A stretch of 64,000 nucleotides of DNA from Halomonas sp. LR3S48 (GTDB lineage Bacteria > Pseudomonadota > Gammaproteobacteria > Pseudomonadales > Halomonadaceae): assembly GCF_025725665.1 (NCBI RefSeq), contig NZ_CP107009.1, forward strand, positions 2,666,001 to 2,730,000, read 5' to 3'. Shown here in pieces: positions 19,099-57,611 of the stretch (position 1 is its first letter; the number at the start of each line of letters is the position of its first letter). The notes below the pieces were generated by a model that saw nothing but the letters and a program-made list of their open reading frames with translations, was not told the origin of the DNA and searched no databases. Position numbers and translations under genes: made by a program.

Positions 19099-20106
19099 TC
19101 AGAAGCCCAGGCTCTCGAGCCGGTTGGCCAGATCCTCCAGGGCCGCGATACCCTGCACGTCGCTCGGCAGCAGCGGCAGGCGCGGTCGCGGCAGGTGCGC
19201 CAGCTGCTCGTCGATGCGCGTCAGATAGCTGGCCTCCTGCATACGTCGCGCACGCAGGAAATCACCGTCGGCGTCGTCGGGGATCACCCGGTTGACCAGG
19301 GCTCCGGCTACCGGGACCTTGACCGCCTCGAGCGCCTGGACGGCACGCACCGTCTCGAGGATTGGCAGCCGCTCCGGTGTCATCACGAACAGGAAACCGC
19401 TCTCCTCGGCGTTCTCGATGCGGCGACGGGCACGGTGAAACAGGCGCCGACGCTCGATCAGGGTTCGTGCCACGTCGCGAGTGCGTTCATCGAGGTCGCT
19501 GAGGGGGTCCTCCTGGGGGTCATCGAAGGGCGTGTCGACGTCACGACCACGCTTGGGCGTCAGGTGGGAGAGCACCTTGCCCAGTTCTTCGGACTTGCGG
19601 TTGTGCGCCAGCAGTCCGTCGGTCCAGGCAGCCATGGCTTCGGGCAGGGTCAGCAGGCGCAGGGTGTGTCCCGTCGGTGCGGTATCGAAGATCACCAAGT
19701 CGTAGGACGCATCGTCATTGGTGACGATACGCGACAGCCGCTCCAGCAGCGCGGCTTCCTGGGTGCCCGGCGACTGGCGGGTCAGGCGCATCTGACGTTC
19801 CAGCTCCTGCATCATTTCCGGCGCGGCGTAACGGCGCATCTGCTCGGTGACCCGGGCCAGGTGCGCCTCGACCTCGGCATCGGGGTCGATCTCCATGGCA
19901 TCCAGATTGGGCAACAAGCGCCGCGGCGCATCGCCCAACTCGCGGTCGAACACGTCGCCCAGGCTGTGGGCCGGGTCGGTGGACACCACCAGCACGCGGC
20001 GTTCGCGTCGCGCGGCCAGCACGGCAAGCGCTGCCGCCACCGTGGTCTTGCCCACCCCGCCCTTGCCGCCCACCCAGAGCAGGCGTTTATCGAGTAACTC
20101 TCTCAT
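19099..20106 (-). CDS. ArsA/GET3-family ATPase
   Basis: A 335-residue P-loop ATPase. The deviant Walker A motif KGGVGKTT is near residue 14, and the ArsA/GET3 signature VVSTDPAHSLGD follows. A later FDTAPTGHTLRLL is the switch II region. It is a single-domain form, unlike the duplicated arsenite-pump ArsA, and no arsB or arsR is nearby. Relatives energise arsenite export or handle tail-anchored membrane proteins. Here it is the last gene of the operon cstA - Cys-Cys protein - ATPase, 64 bases after the second gene, which suggests a role tied to that transporter. The ATG at 20106 has GGGA upstream; a GTG at 20118 is less likely. Confidence 0.9.
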   Translation of the reverse strand: MRELLDKRLLWVGGKGGVGKTTVAAALAVLAARRERRVLVVSTDPAHSLGDVFDRELGDAPRRLLPNLDAMEIDPDAEVEAHLARVTEQMRRYAAPEMMQELERQMRLTRQSPGTQEAALLERLSRIVTNDDASYDLVIFDTAPTGHTLRLLTLPEAMAAWTDGLLAHNRKSEELGKVLSHLTPKRGRDVDTPFDDPQEDPLSDLDERTRDVARTLIERRRLFHRARRRIENAEESGFLFVMTPERLPILETVRAVQALEAVKVPVAGALVNRVIPDDADGDFLRARRMQEASYLTRIDEQLAHLPRPRLPLLPSDVQGIAALEDLANRLESLGF

Positions 20107-20170
20107 GTCACATCCCACGAAGCATGGCTTGCTGCGCGGCTAATTCGGCGCCGCGCTCAAGATCCGGCCG

Positions 20171-46857: not shown

Positions 46858-47022
46858 GATAGCCATGAGATCCTTGTCGGCAGCAGGCCCTTCGACCCAG
46901 CCTGCCATGATGGACGATGGCGAAGGCGTGTTGCCTGTGCCTTGCCAATGAGTGATTCCTGCAGCGGACTTGGCGCGCAGGAGGACAAGCCGCTGGCCGA
47001 TAGCGACCAGACAGGAGTAGCC

Positions 47023-47796
47023 ATGCATCGATGCGCCGAAAAGGAAGGACACTGCGAACGCTGCGAGGGTCCATTGCCCTTCGCGTTCACCATGGCTTTC
47101 CAGCCCATCGTCGATCTCGCCTCGGCCCGCATCACCGCCTACGAGGCACTGGTGAGGGGGCCGGGTGGCGAATCCGCTGGCAGTATCCTGGCGCAGGTCA
47201 CCCCTCGCCTGCTCTACCGTTTCGACCAGGCCTGTCGAATCCGCGCCATCGAACTCGCCAGCCGCCTTGGCATGCGCGAGAGCCTGTCGATCAATTTCCT
47301 GCCCAACGCCGTCTATGAGCCCATGGCATGCATCCAGGCAACGCTGGCGATATCCGAGCAGGTGGGTTGGCCGGTAGAGCGACTGATCTTCGAAGTTACG
47401 GAGACCGAGCGAGTTCAGGGACAGCATCTGGGCAACATCATCGAGGCCTACCGTAGCATGGGCTTCGTGACCGCACTGGACGACTTCGGAAATGGCTTCG
47501 CCAACCTCGACCTGTTGGTGGAACTGCACCCCGACCGGCTCAAGATCGACCGCGCCCTGGTGATGGGCTGCGACAGCGATTCGCGCCGCCAGGCCATACT
47601 GCGTGCCCTCATCGGCCTGGGCCGAGAGCTCGGCATCGACCTGGTGGCGGAAGGGGTGGAGACCCGTGCGGAAGCCTTGTGGCTGGCCCGCAGCGGCATT
47701 ACCCAGCAGCAAGGCTTCTTCTATGCCCGTCCCGGCCTTGAGAAACTGACTCCTGGCCTGGAGCCGGCTCTCATGGCATTGCAGCGGGCCATTTGA
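47023..47796 (+). CDS. EAL-domain c-di-GMP phosphodiesterase with Cys-rich N-terminus
   Basis: A 257-residue protein. Nearly the whole chain is an EAL domain with intact catalytic residues: YEALVRG, SINFLP, FEVTETE, DDFGNG, RLKID, VAEGVET and QGFFYARP. It should break down c-di-GMP. The first 15 residues carry CxxxxxxCxxC (MHRCAEKEGHCERCEG), possibly a metal or cluster site. I choose the ATG at 47023 because AGGAG stands 5 bases before it; an ATG at 46948 is in frame but lacks such a site. It is driven by a sigma-28 promoter, so c-di-GMP would fall as the flagellum is completed. Confidence 0.92.
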   Translation: MHRCAEKEGHCERCEGPLPFAFTMAFQPIVDLASARITAYEALVRGPGGESAGSILAQVTPRLLYRFDQACRIRAIELASRLGMRESLSINFLPNAVYEPMACIQATLAISEQVGWPVERLIFEVTETERVQGQHLGNIIEAYRSMGFVTALDDFGNGFANLDLLVELHPDRLKIDRALVMGCDSDSRRQAILRALIGLGRELGIDLVAEGVETRAEALWLARSGITQQQGFFYARPGLEKLTPGLEPALMALQRAI

Positions 47797-47879: not shown

Positions 47880-49082
47880 ATGCCTGAGCAAAGGGACCAC
47901 GATCCTTTCACCGTCGCTCTGCATCCGATTCACGATGCCAGCCATCACCATGTGGCGGATCGCCTGGTCTACACCCGGCACACCGACACCGAAACCGAGG
48001 ACGTCATGGCCGCCACGGCCAGGGCGCTGGCCAGCGCCGTCTATGAACTCGGCGATGGCGGCCTGCTGGGCGACAGGACACTGTTCCTCGACCTGCCACT
48101 GGAGTGGCTCGATCGTCCCGAACTGCTGCCGACGCCGGCACCGCGCCTGGCACTTGGCATTGCCGAAGTGTACACGGTCGATGCCGAGCTGCTCGCTCGC
48201 CTGGACGACATCCGCGAGCGCGGCTACCGGGTCATCGTATCGACCCGCCTGCTGAAGCAGGACCTGGAGGCGATGCTCGATCGCTGCGACATCATCATGC
48301 TCACCTCACCACAGGATCTCGACGACGAGACGCTGGAACGGCTTCCCGCACGCAACGTCAAGCTACTGGTCGAGAACCTCGACAGCCGGGAAGAGCTGGA
48401 GCGCTACCAGGCGCTGGGCTGCGACTACTACCATGGGCACTATCTCGCCAAACCCAGCTTCATCGCATCGGCCCCGCGAGGTCGCCACGGTAACCGTGCT
48501 GCCCAGATCCGCCTGATCCGCGCCCTCTACGAGGACAACAACGATCTCAACCGGCTCCATGAGCTGGTGGTGCAAGTGCCACACCTGCACGTGGCCATCC
48601 TGCGCCGGGCCAACTCGAGCTATTTCCACCGCGGCGGCAAGGAGGTCGACCTGCATCGCGCGGTACAGCTCCTGGGGCTCATCGAGCTTCGCCGGCTGAT
48701 CCTGACCCTGACACTCGCCAGCCTGCAACCCTCGTCGCGCATCGTGCTGCGCATGGCGTTGATCCGTGCCTTCATGTGCCGCAACCTGACGGCTCCCTTC
48801 CCCTCCCTCGACCCCGAGGATGCCTTCACCACCGGCCTGTTCTCGATGATGGATGCCCTGCTGGAGGAGGACCGCCAGACCCTGCTCGAACACCTGCCAT
48901 TGGGGCAGCCGATCATCGATGCCCTCAAGCACCGCTCAGGCCCCCTGGGTGCCGTGCTGACCCTGTGCGAGAACCATGAGCGGCAGGTCGAAGAAGCCAT
49001 CGACGACGTGCCTGCCGATCGGCTCCACAACTGCTACATGAATGCCCTCGGGAGCACCAAGTCCCTGATGGAAAATCTTTAA
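47880..49082 (+). CDS. YuxH-like protein: degenerate EAL plus HDOD domain
   Basis: A 400-residue protein. The N-terminal half aligns with an EAL fold, but the catalytic EAL motif is replaced (DRLVYTRH), so it is probably not an enzyme. The C-terminal half is an HDOD domain (QIRLIRALYEDNNDLNRLHELVVQ onward) used in signalling. It is 83 bases downstream of the EAL gene and probably cotranscribed from the sigma-28 promoter. Its stop codon overlaps that of the convergent fliA gene (49079-49082). Confidence 0.88.
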   Translation: MPEQRDHDPFTVALHPIHDASHHHVADRLVYTRHTDTETEDVMAATARALASAVYELGDGGLLGDRTLFLDLPLEWLDRPELLPTPAPRLALGIAEVYTVDAELLARLDDIRERGYRVIVSTRLLKQDLEAMLDRCDIIMLTSPQDLDDETLERLPARNVKLLVENLDSREELERYQALGCDYYHGHYLAKPSFIASAPRGRHGNRAAQIRLIRALYEDNNDLNRLHELVVQVPHLHVAILRRANSSYFHRGGKEVDLHRAVQLLGLIELRRLILTLTLASLQPSSRIVLRMALIRAFMCRNLTAPFPSLDPEDAFTTGLFSMMDALLEEDRQTLLEHLPLGQPIIDALKHRSGPLGAVLTLCENHERQVEEAIDDVPADRLHNCYMNALGSTKSLMENL

Positions 49083-49783
49083 GCGTGCTCGGTCAGGCGC
49101 GCCCTGAGCCGGCTCACCGCCTGACTGTGCAGCTGGCAGACCCGTGATTCGGTCACGCCGAGCACGACGCCGATCTCCTTGAGGTTGAGTTCCTCCTGGT
49201 AGTACAGCGCCATCAGCAACTTCTCACGCTCGGGCAACGCCTCGATGCCTTCGGCCAGACGCTGGCGCTTCTCTTCGTCAATGAGCATACGGTAGGGAGT
49301 GTCGATCGAGGCATCCTCGATCCCGGGCTCGACACCCTCGGCCATCAGCGCCTCGAAGGGGAGCAGATGCCCGCTGTTGGTATCGTTGAGCAATTGCCGA
49401 TACTCCTCCAACCCCATGTCGAGTTCGGCGGCGATCTCTGTCTCCTCGGCCGAGCGCCCCAGCGTCTGTTCCAGGCGCCGCACCGCCTCGTCGACCGCCC
49501 GTGCGTTGCGCCTGACGCTGCGCGGCAGCCAGTCGCGGCTGCGTAACTCGTCGAGCATGGCACCGCGTATACGCTGGCTGGCGAAGGTGGCAAAACTGGC
49601 GCCCTGGGTCGAATCGAAGCGGCCCATGGCCTCGAGCAGCCCCACCATGCCGGCCTGAATCAGGTCGTCGAGTTCGATGCTTGCCGGCAGCCGAACCTGC
49701 ATGGACAGTGCCTGCCGCCTCACCAGCGGCAGGTACTCGTCCAGCAGGTCTGCTTGTTCAATCTTGCCTCGTGCTGTGTACAT
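49079..49783 (-). CDS. fliA: Flagellar sigma factor FliA (sigma-28)
   Basis: A 234-residue sigma factor. Region 2 is LVRRQALSMQVRLPASIELDDLIQ with GMVGLLEA and ASQRIRGAMLDELR. Region 3 lies in the middle, and region 4 has the helix-turn-helix LKEIGVVLGVTESRVCQLHSQAV. It is the last gene of the flhBAF-flhG'-flhE cluster. Five promoters with its consensus occur in this window. Confidence 0.97.
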   Translation of the reverse strand: MYTARGKIEQADLLDEYLPLVRRQALSMQVRLPASIELDDLIQAGMVGLLEAMGRFDSTQGASFATFASQRIRGAMLDELRSRDWLPRSVRRNARAVDEAVRRLEQTLGRSAEETEIAAELDMGLEEYRQLLNDTNSGHLLPFEALMAEGVEPGIEDASIDTPYRMLIDEEKRQRLAEGIEALPEREKLLMALYYQEELNLKEIGVVLGVTESRVCQLHSQAVSRLRARLTEHA

Positions 49784-49839: not shown

Positions 49840-50262
49840 TCAGGGACGTTGCAGATGCTCATGGTCGACGATCACCTGCAGCCCTTGCAGGGTCGTGGCA
49901 CGCTGCCGGCGATCCTGCAGTGAAAACTGGAAATACAGTGGCGTATCGGCCGGCAGGCCCGCCATGACATCGGTTTGCCCACGTGGCCCCGGTAGCGGTA
50001 TGCAGCCCCCCGGGTGGCACAACCAGGCATTCACCTCACTGCCGGCTGGTGGCTGATACTGCCAGCCAACCCGTCGCATCACCTGGCCGCGCGCCAGTTC
50101 AGGCGAGGGTGGCAGCAAGGCAGCGGATGAACTCGGGCGGTCGTCCATGGTCACCAGCAGCGAAGGAGCGCTGGCGACCCAACTGCCGGCGGCATGAGCG
50201 ATACCCATCCACACGGCACAGAGTGCGACACCCGCAAGCCAAGGCCCCGTACGACGTATCAT
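49840..50262 (-). CDS. flhE: Flagellar protein FlhE
   Basis: A 140-residue periplasmic protein. A signal peptide with a cleavage near AHA-AG is followed by a chain resembling E. coli FlhE: WQYQPPAGSEVNAWLCHPGGCIPL and a GLPADTPLYFQF segment. FlhE guards proton leakage through the flagellar export apparatus in enterobacteria. It overlaps the upstream gene by ATGA and sits 56 bases before fliA. Confidence 0.8.
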   Translation of the reverse strand: MIRRTGPWLAGVALCAVWMGIAHAAGSWVASAPSLLVTMDDRPSSSAALLPPSPELARGQVMRRVGWQYQPPAGSEVNAWLCHPGGCIPLPGPRGQTDVMAGLPADTPLYFQFSLQDRRQRATTLQGLQVIVDHEHLQRP

Positions 50263-50849
50263 CTCGCCAATACCAGCAGTTCGATGCCGAAATAAGCGTC
50301 CGCCACATACTGTAGATTGGCCAATAGACCCTGCCGCCCCACCCCCGGCGGATGTACGGCGATCAAACGCTGCGGGCCGCCCTGTTCGGAGATCTGCCTG
50401 AGCATGCGATAGCCGCGGCGAAACGCCTCCAGATCGTCATCCACCCACAGCGCCCAGTGCGATTGCTGTGTCACCAGCAGTGGCAAGTGCGGACTGTCGA
50501 TGGGCAACGCCACGATGCGCCAGGACCGCGGATCGCCTATCCAGCGCCGCCCCTCCCCGGCCCAACTTTCCAGTAGTTCGCTCACCCTGGTGGTGTGCCG
50601 TTCGGCGGTGCCCGGCAGGCCCAGCACCATCAACGTCACTGGCTGAGCACTGCCCGCCTTGCGCGGCGGCGTCACGGCGGCACTCGTTGATGCCGGCTTG
50701 GCCGATGGCCGGGGGGCAGCCTGCGATCTTGCCTCACTGCTGCCTCCGCCAGCAGCCAGCTCGACCAGCATCTCGGCCACATGTGCCGGGCAATCCTGCG
50801 ATTCACCGTTCGCCCATTGGCGCAGCCCTGCGGCCTGGTCCCATCCCAT
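50259..50849 (-). CDS. FlhG-like protein lacking the ATPase P-loop
   Basis: A 196-residue protein in the place where flhG normally follows flhF. It starts MGWDQAAGLRQW, matching the DQAxxLR motif that in Bacillus/Geobacillus FlhG activates the FlhF GTPase. A Pro/Ala/Ser linker (about residues 36-68) follows. The rest has the hydrophobic pattern of the MinD fold (VTLMVLGLPG..., a DDDLEAFRRGYRMLRQ segment, and a C-terminal GLLANLQYVADAYFGIELLVL) but no deviant Walker A lysine, so it should not hydrolyse ATP. It abuts flhF exactly and overlaps flhE. The motif is plain; the fold assignment is inference. Confidence 0.6.
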   Translation of the reverse strand: MGWDQAAGLRQWANGESQDCPAHVAEMLVELAAGGGSSEARSQAAPRPSAKPASTSAAVTPPRKAGSAQPVTLMVLGLPGTAERHTTRVSELLESWAGEGRRWIGDPRSWRIVALPIDSPHLPLLVTQQSHWALWVDDDLEAFRRGYRMLRQISEQGGPQRLIAVHPPGVGRQGLLANLQYVADAYFGIELLVLAR

Positions 50850-53066
50850 CTAACCTGTCTCCCTTTCACCGAGACCAAGGTGGCGAATGGCATCGCGCAC
50901 CATGAAAAGTTGTACCAACGACTCGAGCAGCGCAACGTCGCGGCGTCGGCGACGCCCACCGCCAAGCCCCAGCAGCTCCGCCCGTAGATCCATCGCCGCC
51001 TCGTCCTCGGCAAGGTCCAGGTGAGCCGCCACCGTCGCCAGACCACTGGCCATCAACAGACGCTGACCGGCACGTAGTTCCCCTAGCTCGGCCGGGTCCA
51101 GGCGCTGCCAGGCACGGCGGGCAAGCTGCGGCAGAACGTCGCCCTGCAACAGTGTGAGCAACAGTGGCTTGGGCTCGCGCCCCAGCCGCGCCGGGGTTAT
51201 CCAATAGCGCTTGCCAAGGACCTTGCCACTCTCCTCATCACGAACCTCACCGAGCCAGGCCCGCGCACTCAGGCTTTGCTGGTCGCGCCGGCCACCCTTG
51301 AAGACCGCCTCGACGGGCAGGGTAGAGAGGCCGAGACGTCCCGGTGCACCGCGGAAACGGCAGCGCACTTCACCCATGGCTTCGCCCGTACCTTCGAGCG
51401 ACGCCAGGGTGCGCCGTTCGCCGGAGTAGTCGACACGCTGGCTTCCGCGCACCTGGCTGCACCAACTCATCTCCTGACGCTCCAACCACTCTCCCGCTTC
51501 GCCATCGGGCAGCCCGTTCAGCAGATGTACGCCGATATCGTGCCGCTCCAGCGCCGCCGCCAGACGCCCCTGCTGTCCCGCTACCTGGCGATGCTGCAAT
51601 AGCGGCAGCGCCAGCCAGGTGCCCTCGGAGCTGAGTGCCACGTCGGGCATCGACCAGTTCTCGCCCGGCACACGGCGGCGTTCGCTCCACATCATGCCCA
51701 GCGCCTGGTCGGAACGGGGATAGTCTGCCAGCAACTGCTCCAGGCGCTGCTGCTGGACGGTTGAAGGTAACCCCAGCAGGTTCCACACCTCTTCGAGGCG
51801 CTCGAAGCCGGGCAGGCGCTGGCGCAGCGCCTGCAACACGACGGCCAGGCGGCGCCCTTGGCCCAGCAGGTTGCCGGAACTTCGGGCGGCAGGCTCCACG
51901 GCCTGTCGCGCCGGCCTTGCCAGCGGTGTGCGATCGGCCAATGCCTGTCCGATCAGGGTATCGGGCTCGGCGAGCGCCATGTCCTCCGGCACACGCTGGC
52001 CATGCGAGACGAACAGCAGACGAAGCCCGTGGCGCATGACGATGTCGAGCACGGGCGCCAACCGCCCTGCTTCGTCCTGCTTGGTGATGATGCAGTCGCA
52101 CAACTCGCCACCGGCCGCCTGGGCCGCCTGGCGATAGCGCACCACCACCTCCTCGAGGGTCTCGGGTTGGCTGGCGGCATTGAGCAGCAGCACCAGGCGC
52201 ACCGGGGAATCGCCGCCGTGCAGATGACTGACCTGTTCGATCACGCGGTGATCGCGCTGGCTCATGCCAACCGTATCGATGATGATCCAGGACTTGCCCT
52301 TCACACGCTCCAGCAGATCCGATACCGGTTGGTCGGCGTTGAGCGCGTACATCGGCACGTCAAGCAGCCGCGAATAGATGCGCAGCTGCTCATGAGCGCC
52401 GATACGGAAGCTGTCGGTGGTCACCAGCGCCACAGGACGCGTGCCGTGACGCATGACATAACGCGCCGCCAGCTTGGCCGTGGTGGTGGTCTTGCCCACC
52501 CCGGTGGGACCGATCAGCGCCACGATACCGGTACGGTCCATGAAGGCGGCTTCGTCGTCCAGGCCGCTCAAGCGCTTGGCCAACTGGCGCGCCAGCCAGG
52601 CCAATGCACGCTCATCCAGCGCGCCTGCGACCGCCAACTCTTCGGGCAGGGCCGACACCACCTCTTCGGCCAACGCCTGGCCGAAACCGGCCTCCAGCAT
52701 CGTCCGCACGAGCTGCTCGCCGAGCGAATCGGCCGATTCCGGCTGGCCACGCTCGCGGGAAAGCAGGGCACGCATGTCGCGCATCTCTTCGAGCAGCCTT
52801 GCACTCATGGCCTCGAAGGCCTGGGCCGGGTCCGGCCCCACTGGCGTGGCCGGCGTGGTTGCCGGGCGGCCCGACTCGGCGGATGGCGGCGTGACGCTGC
52901 CGATACTGGCATCACCGTCGGTCGCCGCCGACTCGGCCATGGCCAGGATTTCGACACCCTGCTCGGTGTGTCGGTTGGCCAGTATCAGGGCCTCATCGCC
53001 AAGTGCAGCACGCACCTGGCGCATGGCCTCGCGACTGTTGGCGCCCAAGAAACGCATGACACTCAT
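50850..53066 (-). CDS. flhF: FlhF signal-recognition GTPase with long C-terminal extension
   Basis: A 738-residue protein; the family usually has about 400-480. The N-terminal B domain (MRFLGANSREAMRQVRAAL) and a disordered linker lead to the NG domain: P-loop GPTGVGKTTTTAKL near residue 188, TDSFRIGAHEQLRI, IIDTVGMSQRD, and TKQDEAG near 329. The GTPase ends near residue 380. The remaining 350 residues match no family I know; they are mixed alpha/beta with many Arg and Gln, and they end in a helical stretch. FlhF places flagella in polar flagellates. The gene starts 3 bases after flhA and touches the FlhG-like gene. Confidence 0.93.
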   Translation of the reverse strand: MSVMRFLGANSREAMRQVRAALGDEALILANRHTEQGVEILAMAESAATDGDASIGSVTPPSAESGRPATTPATPVGPDPAQAFEAMSARLLEEMRDMRALLSRERGQPESADSLGEQLVRTMLEAGFGQALAEEVVSALPEELAVAGALDERALAWLARQLAKRLSGLDDEAAFMDRTGIVALIGPTGVGKTTTTAKLAARYVMRHGTRPVALVTTDSFRIGAHEQLRIYSRLLDVPMYALNADQPVSDLLERVKGKSWIIIDTVGMSQRDHRVIEQVSHLHGGDSPVRLVLLLNAASQPETLEEVVVRYRQAAQAAGGELCDCIITKQDEAGRLAPVLDIVMRHGLRLLFVSHGQRVPEDMALAEPDTLIGQALADRTPLARPARQAVEPAARSSGNLLGQGRRLAVVLQALRQRLPGFERLEEVWNLLGLPSTVQQQRLEQLLADYPRSDQALGMMWSERRRVPGENWSMPDVALSSEGTWLALPLLQHRQVAGQQGRLAAALERHDIGVHLLNGLPDGEAGEWLERQEMSWCSQVRGSQRVDYSGERRTLASLEGTGEAMGEVRCRFRGAPGRLGLSTLPVEAVFKGGRRDQQSLSARAWLGEVRDEESGKVLGKRYWITPARLGREPKPLLLTLLQGDVLPQLARRAWQRLDPAELGELRAGQRLLMASGLATVAAHLDLAEDEAAMDLRAELLGLGGGRRRRRDVALLESLVQLFMVRDAIRHLGLGERETG

Positions 53067-53069
53067 CGC

Positions 53070-55151
53070 TTATCGACCTCCCACCAGCGTCACGATGCGC
53101 AGGGTGCGATCATCGGGAATTTCCGCCTGCGACATGACCACAAGGTGGCGCATGCGCCGGCGCAGGAAGCGGGCCAGCAACGGTCGCAGGCTATGCTGCA
53201 CGACCAGCACCGCTGGCTCGCCGCTCGCCTCGTGGCGCTCGACGGCCTGTTCGGTTTGACTCATCAAGGTCTCCGCCAGTCCGGGCTCGAGCGACCCATT
53301 GCCGTTCATCGCCTGCATCAGGACCTGCTCGAGCTGGGCATCCAGGCCTATCACGTTCAGCGTATCGCGTCCGGGGAACCACTGCTGAGTAATCGCCCGC
53401 CCCAGCATGATCCGCACCAATGCCGTCAGCTCGTTGGTGTCCTGCTGCTGAGGCGCGTACTCCGCCAGGGTATCCAAGATGGTACGCATGTCGCGAATGG
53501 AGACGTCTTCGTCGAGCAGATTCTGCAGGATACGCTGCAGCACGGTCAGGCTGATGGCCTTGGGAACCACGTCCTCGACCAGCGACTTCTGCTCCTCGCC
53601 CAACTTGTCGAGCAGCTTCTGGACCTCCTGTCGCCCCAGCATTTCGGACGCATGGCGATGCAGCAAGTGGTTGAGGTGGGTGGCGATCACGGTACCGGCA
53701 TCGACCACGGTATAACCGTAGACTTGAGCGTGTTCGCGCTGGCCGCCGTCGATCCAGACGGCCGGCAGGCCGAAGGCGGGGTCGGTGGTCGGCGTGCCTT
53801 GCAACTGGCCGGTAACCTGCCCAGGGTCGATGGCAAGCCACTGTCCGGGGAAGGCCTCGGCGCGGCCGATTTCCGCCCCTTTCAGGGTAATCACGTAGGT
53901 GTTGGCACCCAATTCAAGGTTGTCGCGTATATGCACCACGGCGGGAAGGAAGCCGACCTCCTGGGCGAACTTCTTGCGCACGCTCTTTATGCGGCCCAGC
54001 AATTCACCGTCCTGACGCTGGTCGACCAGCGGAATGAGACGATGCCCGACTTCGAGACCCAGGGTATCCACCAGTTGGACGTCTTCCCAACTGGCTTCGG
54101 GCGCTTCGGGTGGTGGTGGCGGTTCGGTGTGAAGCTCCTCCTCCACCAGGCGCTGCTCACGCTGCCGCGTGAGCATCCAGGCCAGGCCGGCCAAGAGGCC
54201 GGTAAAGAGCAGGAACACCATGTTGGGCATGCCCGGCACCAGGCCCAGCAGGCCCATGACCAGCGCCGCCAGCACCATTACCTGGGGATTGACGAACAGC
54301 TGACCGATCATCTGCTGGCCGACGTCCTGCTCGGTATTGACACGCGACACGGTCACGCCAGCGGCGGTGGAAATGACCAGGGCGGGAATCTGGGCCACCA
54401 GGCCATCACCGATGGTCATCAAGGTATAGGTCCTGGCGGCATCGCCGAAGCCCATGCCGTGCTGAAGCATGCCGATCAGGAGACCGCCGATGACGTTGAC
54501 CACCATGATCACCAGGCCGGCCATGGCATCGCCGCGCACGAACTTGCTGGCACCGTCCATGGAGCCATAGAAATCGGCCTCCTGGGCAACCTCGGAACGA
54601 CGCTTGCGGGCGTCCTCCTCGCCAATGAGGCCGGCATTGAGGTCGGCGTCGATGGCCATCTGCTTACCCGGCATGGCATCGAGCATGAAGCGCGCCCCCA
54701 CCTCGGCGATGCGTCCCGCGCCCTTGGTGATGACCATGAAATTGATGATGACGAGAATCAGGAACACCACCAGACCGACGGCGAAGTTGCCGCCGATGAG
54801 AAACTCGCCGAACGCCTCGATGACCTTACCGGCCGAATCTCCGCCCTGGTGCCCTTCCATCAGGATGACCCGGGTGGAGGCCACGTTGAGCGACAGGCGC
54901 AGCAGCGTGGTGAACAGCAGCACTGCCGGAAACGCGGCGAAATCCAGCGGCTTCTGGGTAAACATGCTGACCAGCAGCACCATCACCGCCAAGGCGATGT
55001 TGAAGGTGAAGAGCAGGTCGAGTGCGAACGGCGGCAGCGGCACGATCATCATGCCGAGGATCATGATGATCAGGATCGGGCCGGCCAGCAGCTTCATGCG
55101 TACGTCGCCCATCCAGTCGCGGCGCCCGATGATATGGCTGAGTGACTTCAT
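53070..55151 (-). CDS. flhA: Flagellar export gate protein FlhA
   Basis: A 693-residue protein of the type III export apparatus (E. coli 692). Eight hydrophobic segments in the first 330 residues include the FHIPEP signature RLSLNVASTRVIL. The cytoplasmic half binds export chaperones. It overlaps flhB by ATGA. Confidence 0.98.
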   Translation of the reverse strand: MKSLSHIIGRRDWMGDVRMKLLAGPILIIMILGMMIVPLPPFALDLLFTFNIALAVMVLLVSMFTQKPLDFAAFPAVLLFTTLLRLSLNVASTRVILMEGHQGGDSAGKVIEAFGEFLIGGNFAVGLVVFLILVIINFMVITKGAGRIAEVGARFMLDAMPGKQMAIDADLNAGLIGEEDARKRRSEVAQEADFYGSMDGASKFVRGDAMAGLVIMVVNVIGGLLIGMLQHGMGFGDAARTYTLMTIGDGLVAQIPALVISTAAGVTVSRVNTEQDVGQQMIGQLFVNPQVMVLAALVMGLLGLVPGMPNMVFLLFTGLLAGLAWMLTRQREQRLVEEELHTEPPPPPEAPEASWEDVQLVDTLGLEVGHRLIPLVDQRQDGELLGRIKSVRKKFAQEVGFLPAVVHIRDNLELGANTYVITLKGAEIGRAEAFPGQWLAIDPGQVTGQLQGTPTTDPAFGLPAVWIDGGQREHAQVYGYTVVDAGTVIATHLNHLLHRHASEMLGRQEVQKLLDKLGEEQKSLVEDVVPKAISLTVLQRILQNLLDEDVSIRDMRTILDTLAEYAPQQQDTNELTALVRIMLGRAITQQWFPGRDTLNVIGLDAQLEQVLMQAMNGNGSLEPGLAETLMSQTEQAVERHEASGEPAVLVVQHSLRPLLARFLRRRMRHLVVMSQAEIPDDRTLRIVTLVGGR

Positions 55152-56344
55152 CGACGCTCTCCGCCGGGCCCGGCGGTATCCTGGTCAGCGTCGCCAGCGA
55201 CCGCGTCGGCGGCTGGCACTTCCAGGTTTTCCGGTATGGGCAAATTCTCTGGTGTAGGCGGCACCTCTCCCCCCTCTCGTGACACGTGCTTGAGACGGAA
55301 GGCCCAGGCCAGGACTTCCGCTACGGCGGTATACAGGTCAAACGGAATCTCATGCTCGAGATCGACGTGGTGATACAGGGCACGAGCCAGCGGCGGGGCC
55401 TGCAGAAGCGGCACACCCGCTTCCTCGGCGAGTTCGCGGATACGCGCCGCCACCCTGTCGGCGCCCTTGGCTACTACCCTCGGCGCCCCCATGCCCTTCT
55501 CATCATACTGTAGCGCTACTGCATAGTGCGTCGGGTTGGTGATGATGACATCCGCCTCGGGCACCTTGCTCATCATGCGACCGCGCGCCATTGCCTGTTG
55601 CTGGGAGCGGATCCGTGCCTTGAGGTGCGGATCGCCCTCGGACTCCTTGTGCTCGCGCTTGATCTCGTCCTTCGACATGCGCAACTTCTTGGCATGGTTC
55701 CAAAGCTGGTAGGGCACGTCGATCAGTATCACCACCAGCAGCGTCAGCACCATCAAGCCGCAGGCCTCGGCCGCCATCATCAGCGCTCGGGCCAACGCCT
55801 GGGTCGTCGGTTGATCCAACAGCGACAGGTACTCCCCGCGCTTGAAATAGAGATACGCCATGCCGACCCCACCGATGAGCACCGACTTGGCCACCGCCTT
55901 GAACAGTTCGACCAGTGCCTGGGTACCGAACATGCGCTTCAGACCCTTGAAAGGGTTGAGCTTCGACATCTGGGGCTTGAGCGATTTGGCCGAAATCAGC
56001 CAGCCCCCCAGCAGCGCCGGCGCCACCAACGCCACTAACGTCAGCAACAGGAACAGCGGCATCATGGACACCAGCGTACGGCTGCCCAGGTCGAGCACGT
56101 TGCTCAGCATGGGACCGGTTTCGAAGGCTTGACGACGCTCGAACAGGAAGGCCTGCTCCATCACCAGCCCGAGCTGATCGTAGAGCATCGCTCCCATCGA
56201 CCACATACCCACCACGCCGCCCAACAGCAGCATGAAGGTGGTCAATTCCCGGGAACGGGCGACCTGGCCGTCCTCGCGCGCCTTCTCCAGGCGTCGAGGC
56301 GTGGCCTCTTCGGTCTTTTCCTGATCACTGCTTTCGTCGGCCAT
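55148..56344 (-). CDS. flhB: Flagellar export switch protein FlhB
   Basis: A 398-residue protein with four spans and a cytoplasmic domain with the self-cleaving NPTH motif (IITNPTHYAVALQY). It switches export specificity from hook to filament. The C-terminal tail after residue 350 is Pro/Glu-rich and a little longer than in E. coli. It is the first gene of flhBAF-flhG'-flhE-fliA. Confidence 0.97.
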   Translation of the reverse strand: MADESSDQEKTEEATPRRLEKAREDGQVARSRELTTFMLLLGGVVGMWSMGAMLYDQLGLVMEQAFLFERRQAFETGPMLSNVLDLGSRTLVSMMPLFLLLTLVALVAPALLGGWLISAKSLKPQMSKLNPFKGLKRMFGTQALVELFKAVAKSVLIGGVGMAYLYFKRGEYLSLLDQPTTQALARALMMAAEACGLMVLTLLVVILIDVPYQLWNHAKKLRMSKDEIKREHKESEGDPHLKARIRSQQQAMARGRMMSKVPEADVIITNPTHYAVALQYDEKGMGAPRVVAKGADRVAARIRELAEEAGVPLLQAPPLARALYHHVDLEHEIPFDLYTAVAEVLAWAFRLKHVSREGGEVPPTPENLPIPENLEVPAADAVAGDADQDTAGPGGERR

Positions 56345-56493: not shown

Positions 56494-57186
56494 TCAGAAG
56501 CCGAGCTGATCCAGTAGATCGTCGACCTGATCCTGGTTCGTCATGACGTCGGCTCCCGGCTTGATCTGGGGACCGTTGAGCAGGCTTTCCTCGCGACGTC
56601 GCGCTTCTGTCTCCCATTGATCGTTGGCCTTGCGCTGCATGCTCTCGCGGGCCACTTCCTCGGGGACGTTGTCGATCAATACCTGTACCAGCTGGTGCTC
56701 GATCTCGCGGATGACGTCCATCATCTTCTTGATCACCTGCCCCGTCAGATCCTGGAAGTCCTGGGCCATCATGATCTCGAGCAGCTCCTTCTGGGTGGCC
56801 TGGGTCTTGTCGGGCACCTCAGCCAGGTAGGAGCGCGTCTGCTTGACCAGGTCGCGCGCCTCGTCGAGTTCCTTGGGTTCGGCGAACCACTCGGCCCAGC
56901 GCTTGTCCAGCGACTCAGCGCCACTGCTGATCGCGTCCTGCAGCGGCTGGGCACGATCGATGGCGTTGAGGGCACGCTCCGCGGCCTGCTCGGTCATGGT
57001 AGCCACGTAACTCAGCCGATCCCGCGCATCGGGAATCGCCTCGGCCGCCTTCTCGATTTCCTTGTCCAGACCCAACTCGCGCATGCTCTCACGCAGCATG
57101 CGGGTCAACTGTCCGATACGCTGGACCAGTTCCTCGCCGGCGGCACCGGCCGCTTGAGCCTGGCCTGGCTGCTCGTTTGCGCTCAT
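56494..57186 (-). CDS. cheZ: CheY-P phosphatase CheZ
   Basis: A 230-residue helical protein. The catalytic glutamine lies in [20 protein letters not shown]. The C-terminal amphipathic helix [13 protein letters not shown] binds CheY. AAGGAGAG precedes the ATG at 57186; the frame continues to 57225 inside the cheY end. It removes phosphate from CheY-P to end the tumble signal. Confidence 0.95.
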
Positions 57187-57221
57187 TTTGTACTCTCCTT
57201 TCGCAAGCGGGGCTAACAGCG

Positions 57222-57611
57222 TCACTTGCCCAGCTTCTCGAAAATCTTGTTGAGCTTCTCTTCCAGCGTGGCGGCGGTAAACGGCTTCACCACGTAGCCG
57301 CTGGCCCCGGCCTGAGCTGCCGCGATTATGTTCTCCTTCTTCGCCTCGGCGGTCACCATCAGCACCGGCAACTGCTTGAGCGCATCGTCGGCGCGGATCT
57401 GCTTGAGCATCTCCAGGCCATCGAGGTTTGGCATGTTCCAGTCGGACACCACGAACTCGAAGGAGCCCGAGCGCAGCTTGCTCAACGCCTCCTGTCCGTC
57501 TTCGGCTTCTTCGACATTGGTGTAGCCGAGCTCCTTCAACAGGCTCCGAACGATCCGGCGCATGGTCGGAAAGTCATCGACCACCAGAAAGCTCATGTTC
57601 TTGTCAGCCAT
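57222..57611 (-). CDS. cheY: Chemotaxis response regulator CheY
   Basis: A 129-residue receiver domain with [11 protein letters not shown], phospho-aspartate in VVSDWNMP (near residue 57), Thr in [11 protein letters not shown] and Lys in VVKPF. The FPTMRR and [11 protein letters not shown] segments are typical of true CheY. It binds FliM when phosphorylated. It is followed by cheZ. Confidence 0.97.

Follow-up and report, generated by a model that had tools for sequence, protein, structure and literature searches.

Flagellar locus and features of mini-FlhG

The window analysed here, a 64,000-nucleotide stretch of Halomonas sp. LR3S48 (contig NZ_CP107009.1, positions 2,666,001 to 2,730,000), carries a minus-strand flagellar operon in which the gene after flhF encodes a protein of 196 amino acids that we term mini-FlhG. 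As the initial annotation stated, translation of this open reading frame (ORF) contains no MinD-type P-loop, neither KGGxGK nor the full deviant Walker A motif KGGxGKT. Judged by its sequence, mini-FlhG is a relic of FlhG that retains the FlhF-activating helix. The features that define it, its parts and its immediate neighbours are as follows.

50259..50849, minus: mini-FlhG (FlhG relic), 196 amino acids; ORF, homologues, FlhG homology by sequence
50814..50840, minus: enhancer helix DQAAGLRQW, mini-FlhG residues 4-12; conserved, nonsynonymous divergence (dN) 0; role of the motif taken from part of PMC12826062
50643..50813, minus: variable linker rich in Ala, Pro and Ser, residues 13-69; dN/dS (relative to synonymous divergence) about 0.64, mostly low predicted local distance difference test (pLDDT) scores
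50262..50642, minus: reduced MinD-like domain, residues 70-196; five strands and four helices predicted, pLDDT blocks 81-98
50589..50621, minus: GLPGTAERHTT, residues 77-87, after strand 1; no Walker lysines
50850..53066, minus: flhF, 738 amino acids; SRP54 GTPase domain, TIGR03499 (FlhF) 216 bits against a cut-off of 174
50853..51920, minus: FlhF C-terminal extension, residues 383-738 (356 residues); predicted Tn5-transposase-like fold, conserved in the family
49840..50262, minus: flhE; PF06366 58.6 bits (cut-off 25), E 7e-16; NCBIfam model matched below its cut-off (41.6 of 150 bits)

FlhF contains the GTPase motifs GPTGVGKTTTT, DTVG and TKQD. Its stop codon abuts the ATG of mini-FlhG, whose N terminus reads MGWDQAAGLRQW and whose 3′ end overlaps the start of flhE by 4 bases. 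A position after flhF and upstream of fliA is the slot of the FlhG gene; here flhE, absent from the initial annotation, sits between mini-FlhG and fliA. The stretch GLPGTAERHTT is present as first described, and by predicted topology its position would correspond to that of the FlhG P-loop. Within the helix, Gln5 occupies the position termed co-catalytic in the FlhG literature, as covered in part of a 2025 review (PMC12826062).

Conservation and selection

A database search returned 94 homologous proteins, including the window's own, of which the titled ones come from Halomonas, Billgrantia, Modicisalibacter, Franzmannia and similar genera and are labelled 'hypothetical' or 'uncharacterized'. 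Because of these 94 proteins and a domain dN/dS of about 0.13, mini-FlhG is a genuine conserved gene. Residues D4, Q5, A6, G8, L9 and R10 are invariant in all 41 rows of alignment A1, hand-picked among the 94 matches. In 55 pairwise comparisons among 11 loci of one genus, including that of the window, the helix has a median dN of 0.0 at a dS of 1.08, and the dN/dS ratio of the domain is 0.13, that of the linker 0.64; dS is near saturation, and the script retained only ORFs with the helix motif, which 30 of 30 loci had. Columns of the wider alignment A2 average an identity of 0.89 within the helix and 0.48 outside it, with rows partly motif-selected: 15 are database proteins and 21 are locus ORFs mostly found by a DQA regular expression, so the presence of the motif in 36/36 rows is partly circular. 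All 80 named loci carry the helix as DQ-A-A/S/D-GLR, the candidates having been found from two seed peptides, of which the motif was one. No part of mini-FlhG is under stronger constraint than the DQA-GLR helix.

FlhG ancestry and extent of loss

When a profile of the C-terminal half, with the helix excluded, was run against 563 ORFs, FlhG filled the first ten ranks; the set included L138-L142, which the whole-protein A2 profile had itself found, and some overlapping own-genome loci counted twice. The median score was 13 bits for 30 FlhG and -0.65 for the 16 other ATPases reported, a group that includes L123 (11.9 bits), probably an FlhG, encoded after flhF. None of 660 shuffled FlhG sequences reached 10 bits, as 27 of 33 real ones did, and all 27 domain matches above 9 bits fall on one region of FlhG. 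Comparison of the mini-FlhG and FlhG alignments by hhalign gave P 2.9e-4. Searched with A2, 274 genomes of the class yielded five places outside the family, three of which are flhG between flhF and fliA. The other two were rejected as noise, one in G373 (a frame with a stop, unlike FlhG) and the other an additional match in G393 (E 0.049). The proposed FlhG ancestry is thus upheld by a profile that finds FlhG over other ATPases and shuffles.

The predicted model of residues 69-196 covers FlhG residues 21-225 with 117 positions aligned, leaving 88 FlhG residues unaligned, and the net loss relative to FlhG is about 77 residues. The switch II/Walker B motif (DTAAGI) is absent from mini-FlhG and the A1 consensus WRxVPLxxxSPHLPxL stands there instead, a correspondence drawn from strand order (A1 against the FlhG profile A3). 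Mini-FlhG ends at FlhG residue ~220 of 289, about 70 residues short, so the C-terminal membrane-targeting helix (LEFFxERL) is gone. The loss of residues inside the protein and of the membrane anchor at its end shows deletion as well as decay. The initial suggestion that this lineage kept the GTPase-activating helix and let the ATPase decay is supported, the helix being invariant and with dN 0; its second part has to be amended, both for the deletion and because loss of the P-loop is probably older.

A gamma-type FleN is an unlikely source, since the 26 FleN/FlhG found beside flhF at 28 order-level loci have no enhancer helix, and an origin of this kind is also disfavoured by the FlhA tree described below, where the operon groups with beta and enteric systems. 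In those 26 proteins (L106-L133), which have no DQAxxLR helix, activation of FlhF must work otherwise.

Search for a full-length FlhG

The survey for a separate full-length flhG that the initial annotation had called for found none among 151 family genomes with profile A3. At E<=1e-20 this profile gave one match per genome in 144 of the 151, all at 75-84 bits, and none in seven. The match in the window's genome is the division protein MinD, to which the four best family matches, the four compared, are 69-86% identical. Control genomes had FlhG in 18 of 20 cases at 396-502 bits, and FlhG of beta relatives with a broken P-loop scored 109-125 bits, so either kind would have shown. In the two remaining controls (G176, G214) flhF is followed by fliA.

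A full-length FlhG elsewhere in the window's genome was also rejected. PF13614 matched 7 places and PF01656 13, of which 12 were inspected, leaving out C1:629106 (no locus). The translated places are presumably ParA, MinD, two Wzc-like kinases, an ArsA-like protein in the window, Mrp and a CpaE-like protein; further ones we take to be CobB/CobQ types, Ffh, BioD and CysNC. The ArsA/GET3-like ATPase gene, so named by recognition, lies at window positions 19099-20118 (minus).

Distribution and transfer

FlhF exceeds its cut-off in 123 of the 151 family genomes, as a short form in 15 (open frames of 424-477 amino acids) and a long form in 108 (719-874 amino acids). By profile match or motif-bearing ORF, the relic is present in 105 of the 108 long-FlhF genomes. 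Profile A1 matches in 89 of the 151 at E<=0.01, some weakly, a count made per genome, irrespective of the position of the match. Nineteen long-FlhF genomes have no A1 match: 16 possess a DQA-GLR ORF of 135-173 amino acids after flhF, and three, all of genus g8 (L081, L082, L083), show neither profile match nor motif and have flhE directly after flhF (94-110 bits).

The gene after flhF at all 15 short-FlhF loci is fliA, 36-187 bases away. These loci (L066-L080, genera g3, g5, g22 and g24), like those of G176 and G214 (L119 and L122), are native gamma-type operons with a short FlhF, no FlhG, and flhF followed by fliA. A six-frame scan placed the looser motif DQAxxLR in 3 of the 15, ~1.5 kb downstream and inside an apparent cheZ.

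Five of the 80 named loci are titled outside the family, and all five have long FlhF and the relic: Azotobacter vinelandii, Pseudomonas linyingensis, Stutzerimonas stutzeri K1, a Pseudidiomarina metagenome-assembled genome, and an 'Alcanivorax' one that may be misnamed. The cassette probably reached P. linyingensis, A. vinelandii, Stutzerimonas and Pseudidiomarina (L199, L201, L202, L227) by horizontal transfer. A FleN-like gene is also found in A. vinelandii (399 bits), P. linyingensis (317 bits) and S. stutzeri K1 (287 bits). Part of the text of PMC2885672 describes A. vinelandii as peritrichous, with fleN unlinked to flagellar genes and flagella outside FleQ control, and most of its flagellar genes as closest to Chromohalobacter and Cupriavidus. 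These data fit a self-contained peritrichous module. Of the 79 named loci whose sequence extends far enough, 78 have FlhE after the relic by profile: 31 passed the start-position filter, and 47 more matched at E 1e-52 or better in an open frame starting earlier, the second FlhE profile having been built partly from those same matches. The Pseudidiomarina locus has no flhE match.

Operon type

The operon continues on both sides of the genes listed above:

49079..49783, minus: fliA (sigma-28); PRK06986 315 bits, cut-off 201
53070..55151, minus: flhA, beta/enteric type by tree and by 66.6% identity to annotated E. coli FlhA
55148..56344, minus: flhB; ORF, presumed from recognition
56494..57225, minus: cheZ; ORF, presumed from recognition
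57222..57611, minus: cheY; ORF, presumed from recognition

The minus-strand order is cheY, cheZ, flhB, flhA, flhF, mini-FlhG, flhE, fliA. Against Cupriavidus the window's FlhA has 66.5-66.7% identity; the value falls to 53-54% for four relatives in its own family that have a short FlhF, and to 41-53% for the remaining members of the order that were compared. In an FlhA tree of 58 rows, made by a quick method with approximate likelihood-ratio (SH-aLRT) support (L112 was left out, and L133 and L141 fell below the length limit), all 23 long-FlhF rows form one clade (98) that joins beta and E. coli sequences (100) and is separate from the native gamma type. Within this cassette clade, two g8 genomes diverge earliest; the branching order of E. 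coli, beta and cassette clade is not settled, and E. coli has a long branch. On gene order and FlhA sequence the operon is of the beta/enteric type, flhB-flhA-(flhF-relic)-flhE. With flhC (285 bits) about 9 kb outside the window, the system looks flhDC-type. On the strand opposite the operon lie a gene for an HDOD protein with a weak EAL match (47880-49082) and one for a separate EAL-domain protein (46942-47796).

C-terminal extension of FlhF

The model of the FlhF extension unexpectedly predicts a Tn5-transposase fold, and hhalign of the extension against seven Tn5-like proteins gave P 0.016 and 0.0053; Pfam held no Tn5 family match at E<=5. Aspartate or glutamate occupies none of the 9 invariant or 15 near-invariant columns, and a conserved DDE (Asp-Asp-Glu) triad is absent; without a conserved acidic residue no DDE enzyme is expected. 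The extension, of which Cupriavidus FlhF has a homologue, appears to be a dead transposase domain that was domesticated and joined to a signal recognition particle (SRP) GTPase. It was rejected as the missing MinD part of FlhG, given P 0.9 at best for A4 against the FlhG alignment and its Tn5-like model.

Age of the ATPase loss

In Cupriavidus metallidurans, Cupriavidus EM10 and Burkholderia glumae, full-length FlhG has the helix and no P-loop lysines.

L236 7482-8306, L238 7548-8366 and L237 4869-5681: full-length FlhG of Cupriavidus and B. glumae, with helix, no Walker A lysines

Among 108 homologues of Cupriavidus FlhG, most of the named ones from Cupriavidus, 83 have the helix without KGGxGK, 5 have both, 13 have KGGxGK only and 7 have neither. 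As the P-loop appears broken in these full-length proteins, loss of the ATPase probably predates this lineage. Our literature search found no description of their ATPase state. A likely series, in its presumed direction, runs from helix with ATPase, through helix with dead ATPase and helix on a shrunken domain, to nothing, as in g8 and enterics.

Proposed mechanism and alternatives

We consider it likely that mini-FlhG is a reduced FlhG that would stimulate the FlhF GTPase independently of ATP. Through the retained helix (DQAAGLR), its glutamine would act as in studied FlhG, within the FlhF homodimer, speeding GTP hydrolysis; the pertinent part of PMC12826062 assigns this glutamine a co-catalytic role within the FlhF dimer and describes membrane binding by FlhG dimers that depend on ATP. 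Without Walker A or switch regions, mini-FlhG has lost ATP binding; its C-terminal membrane helix has gone too, so that the ATP-dependent dimer at the membrane, by which FlhG counts and restricts flagella, would not be expected. A glutamine function kept while ATP-dependent membrane binding is lost would amount to an ATP-independent FlhF switch. The remaining small alpha/beta domain is probably a carrier or a piece that docks on FlhF or the basal body. Switching of FlhF would then be free of ATP gating and of control over number, in a probably peritrichous system of the flhDC/flhE type, from which we infer an effect on flagellar number and placement.

Alternatively, the protein could derive from FlhG and act chiefly to scaffold C-ring, FliA/FlgM or export-gate proteins, the helix only tethering it to FlhF. 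Purifying selection on the domain and conserved residues beyond the helix would suit such a role, as would the binding of Bacillus FlhG to the C-ring protein FliY reported in part of PMC12327844; yet across the wider family, in the partly motif-chosen A2 rows, the domain diverges strongly and the helix does not, and in genus g4 the ORF shrinks to 131 amino acids, with the glutamine unchanged in aligned rows. We regard this as unlikely.

Some results weigh against FlhG descent itself: the FlhG profile gives the window protein -2.8 bits, which is no recognition, a fold search with the predicted domain tied FlhG with receiver domains, and no Pfam or NCBIfam family, MinD/ParA included, matched mini-FlhG at E<=1. 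A Rossmann or CheY-like protein with a gained or convergent DQAxGLR helix is nonetheless highly improbable, because the C-half profile tells FlhG apart, in one register, from other ATPases and from shuffled sequences, and the gene holds the slot of flhG in beta and gamma relatives. A decaying, functionless pseudogene, which open frames from 131 to over 300 amino acids, the three g8 genomes without the relic and stops in the relic of G137 (93% complete) might suggest, is the least credible reading given near-universal retention with long FlhF, purifying selection down to a helix dN of 0, and the joint occurrence of relic, flhF and flhE in Azotobacter and two Pseudomonadaceae.

If mini-FlhG is the reduced activator that we favour, evolution has here separated, in many species, two functions of FlhG that are hard to separate, the helix that switches FlhF and the ATPase that counts flagella, and these natural proteins make the question of which half does what testable in otherwise E. 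coli-like operons. Our literature search, with most subscription papers outside it, found no description of a reduced FlhG and none of FlhF/FlhG in Halomonadaceae; the part of PMC10185862 consulted, on Halomonas, notes flhF. The relic is a candidate intermediate for the enteric loss of flhF and flhG, and shows what may remain of a flagellum-placing system en route to loss; whether the two genes were never transferred to enterics or lost soon after is left open in the relevant portion of PMC12826062. More speculatively, and with considerable doubt, Halomonadaceae may represent an arrested intermediate in the loss of FlhF-FlhG placement, with FlhG cut to an FlhF-switching helix on a small carrier, the dead Tn5-type domain of FlhF taking over positioning (for example by nucleoid or membrane docking), and the enteric flhB-flhA-flhE operon arising by removal of flhF and the relic.

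Comparison with known systems

With FlhG/FleN/YlxH, the MinD-like ATPase (PDB 4RZ2/4RZ3, 5J1J/5JVF), mini-FlhG shares the slot after flhF, the C-half signature, a compatible alpha/beta order and, with those FlhG having one, the enhancer helix DQAxxLR; it differs in having no Walker A, switch II or C-terminal membrane helix and in missing ~80 internal residues. The FlhG of Cupriavidus and B. glumae belong to the same flagellar type and have the enhancer helix (DQAESLRR/DQAEGLRR) and, as in the relic, P-loops without lysines (AADAGAGATT, GGPVGVGCTS), whereas they are full length at 270-274 amino acids. The FlhF extension has ~10% identity to Tn5 transposase and the Tn5 inhibitor (1B7E) and no conserved acidic residue. 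E. coli cheY-cheZ-flhB-flhA-flhE has the same order around the relic, but no flhF or flhG between flhA and flhE, and its fliA is not next to flhE.
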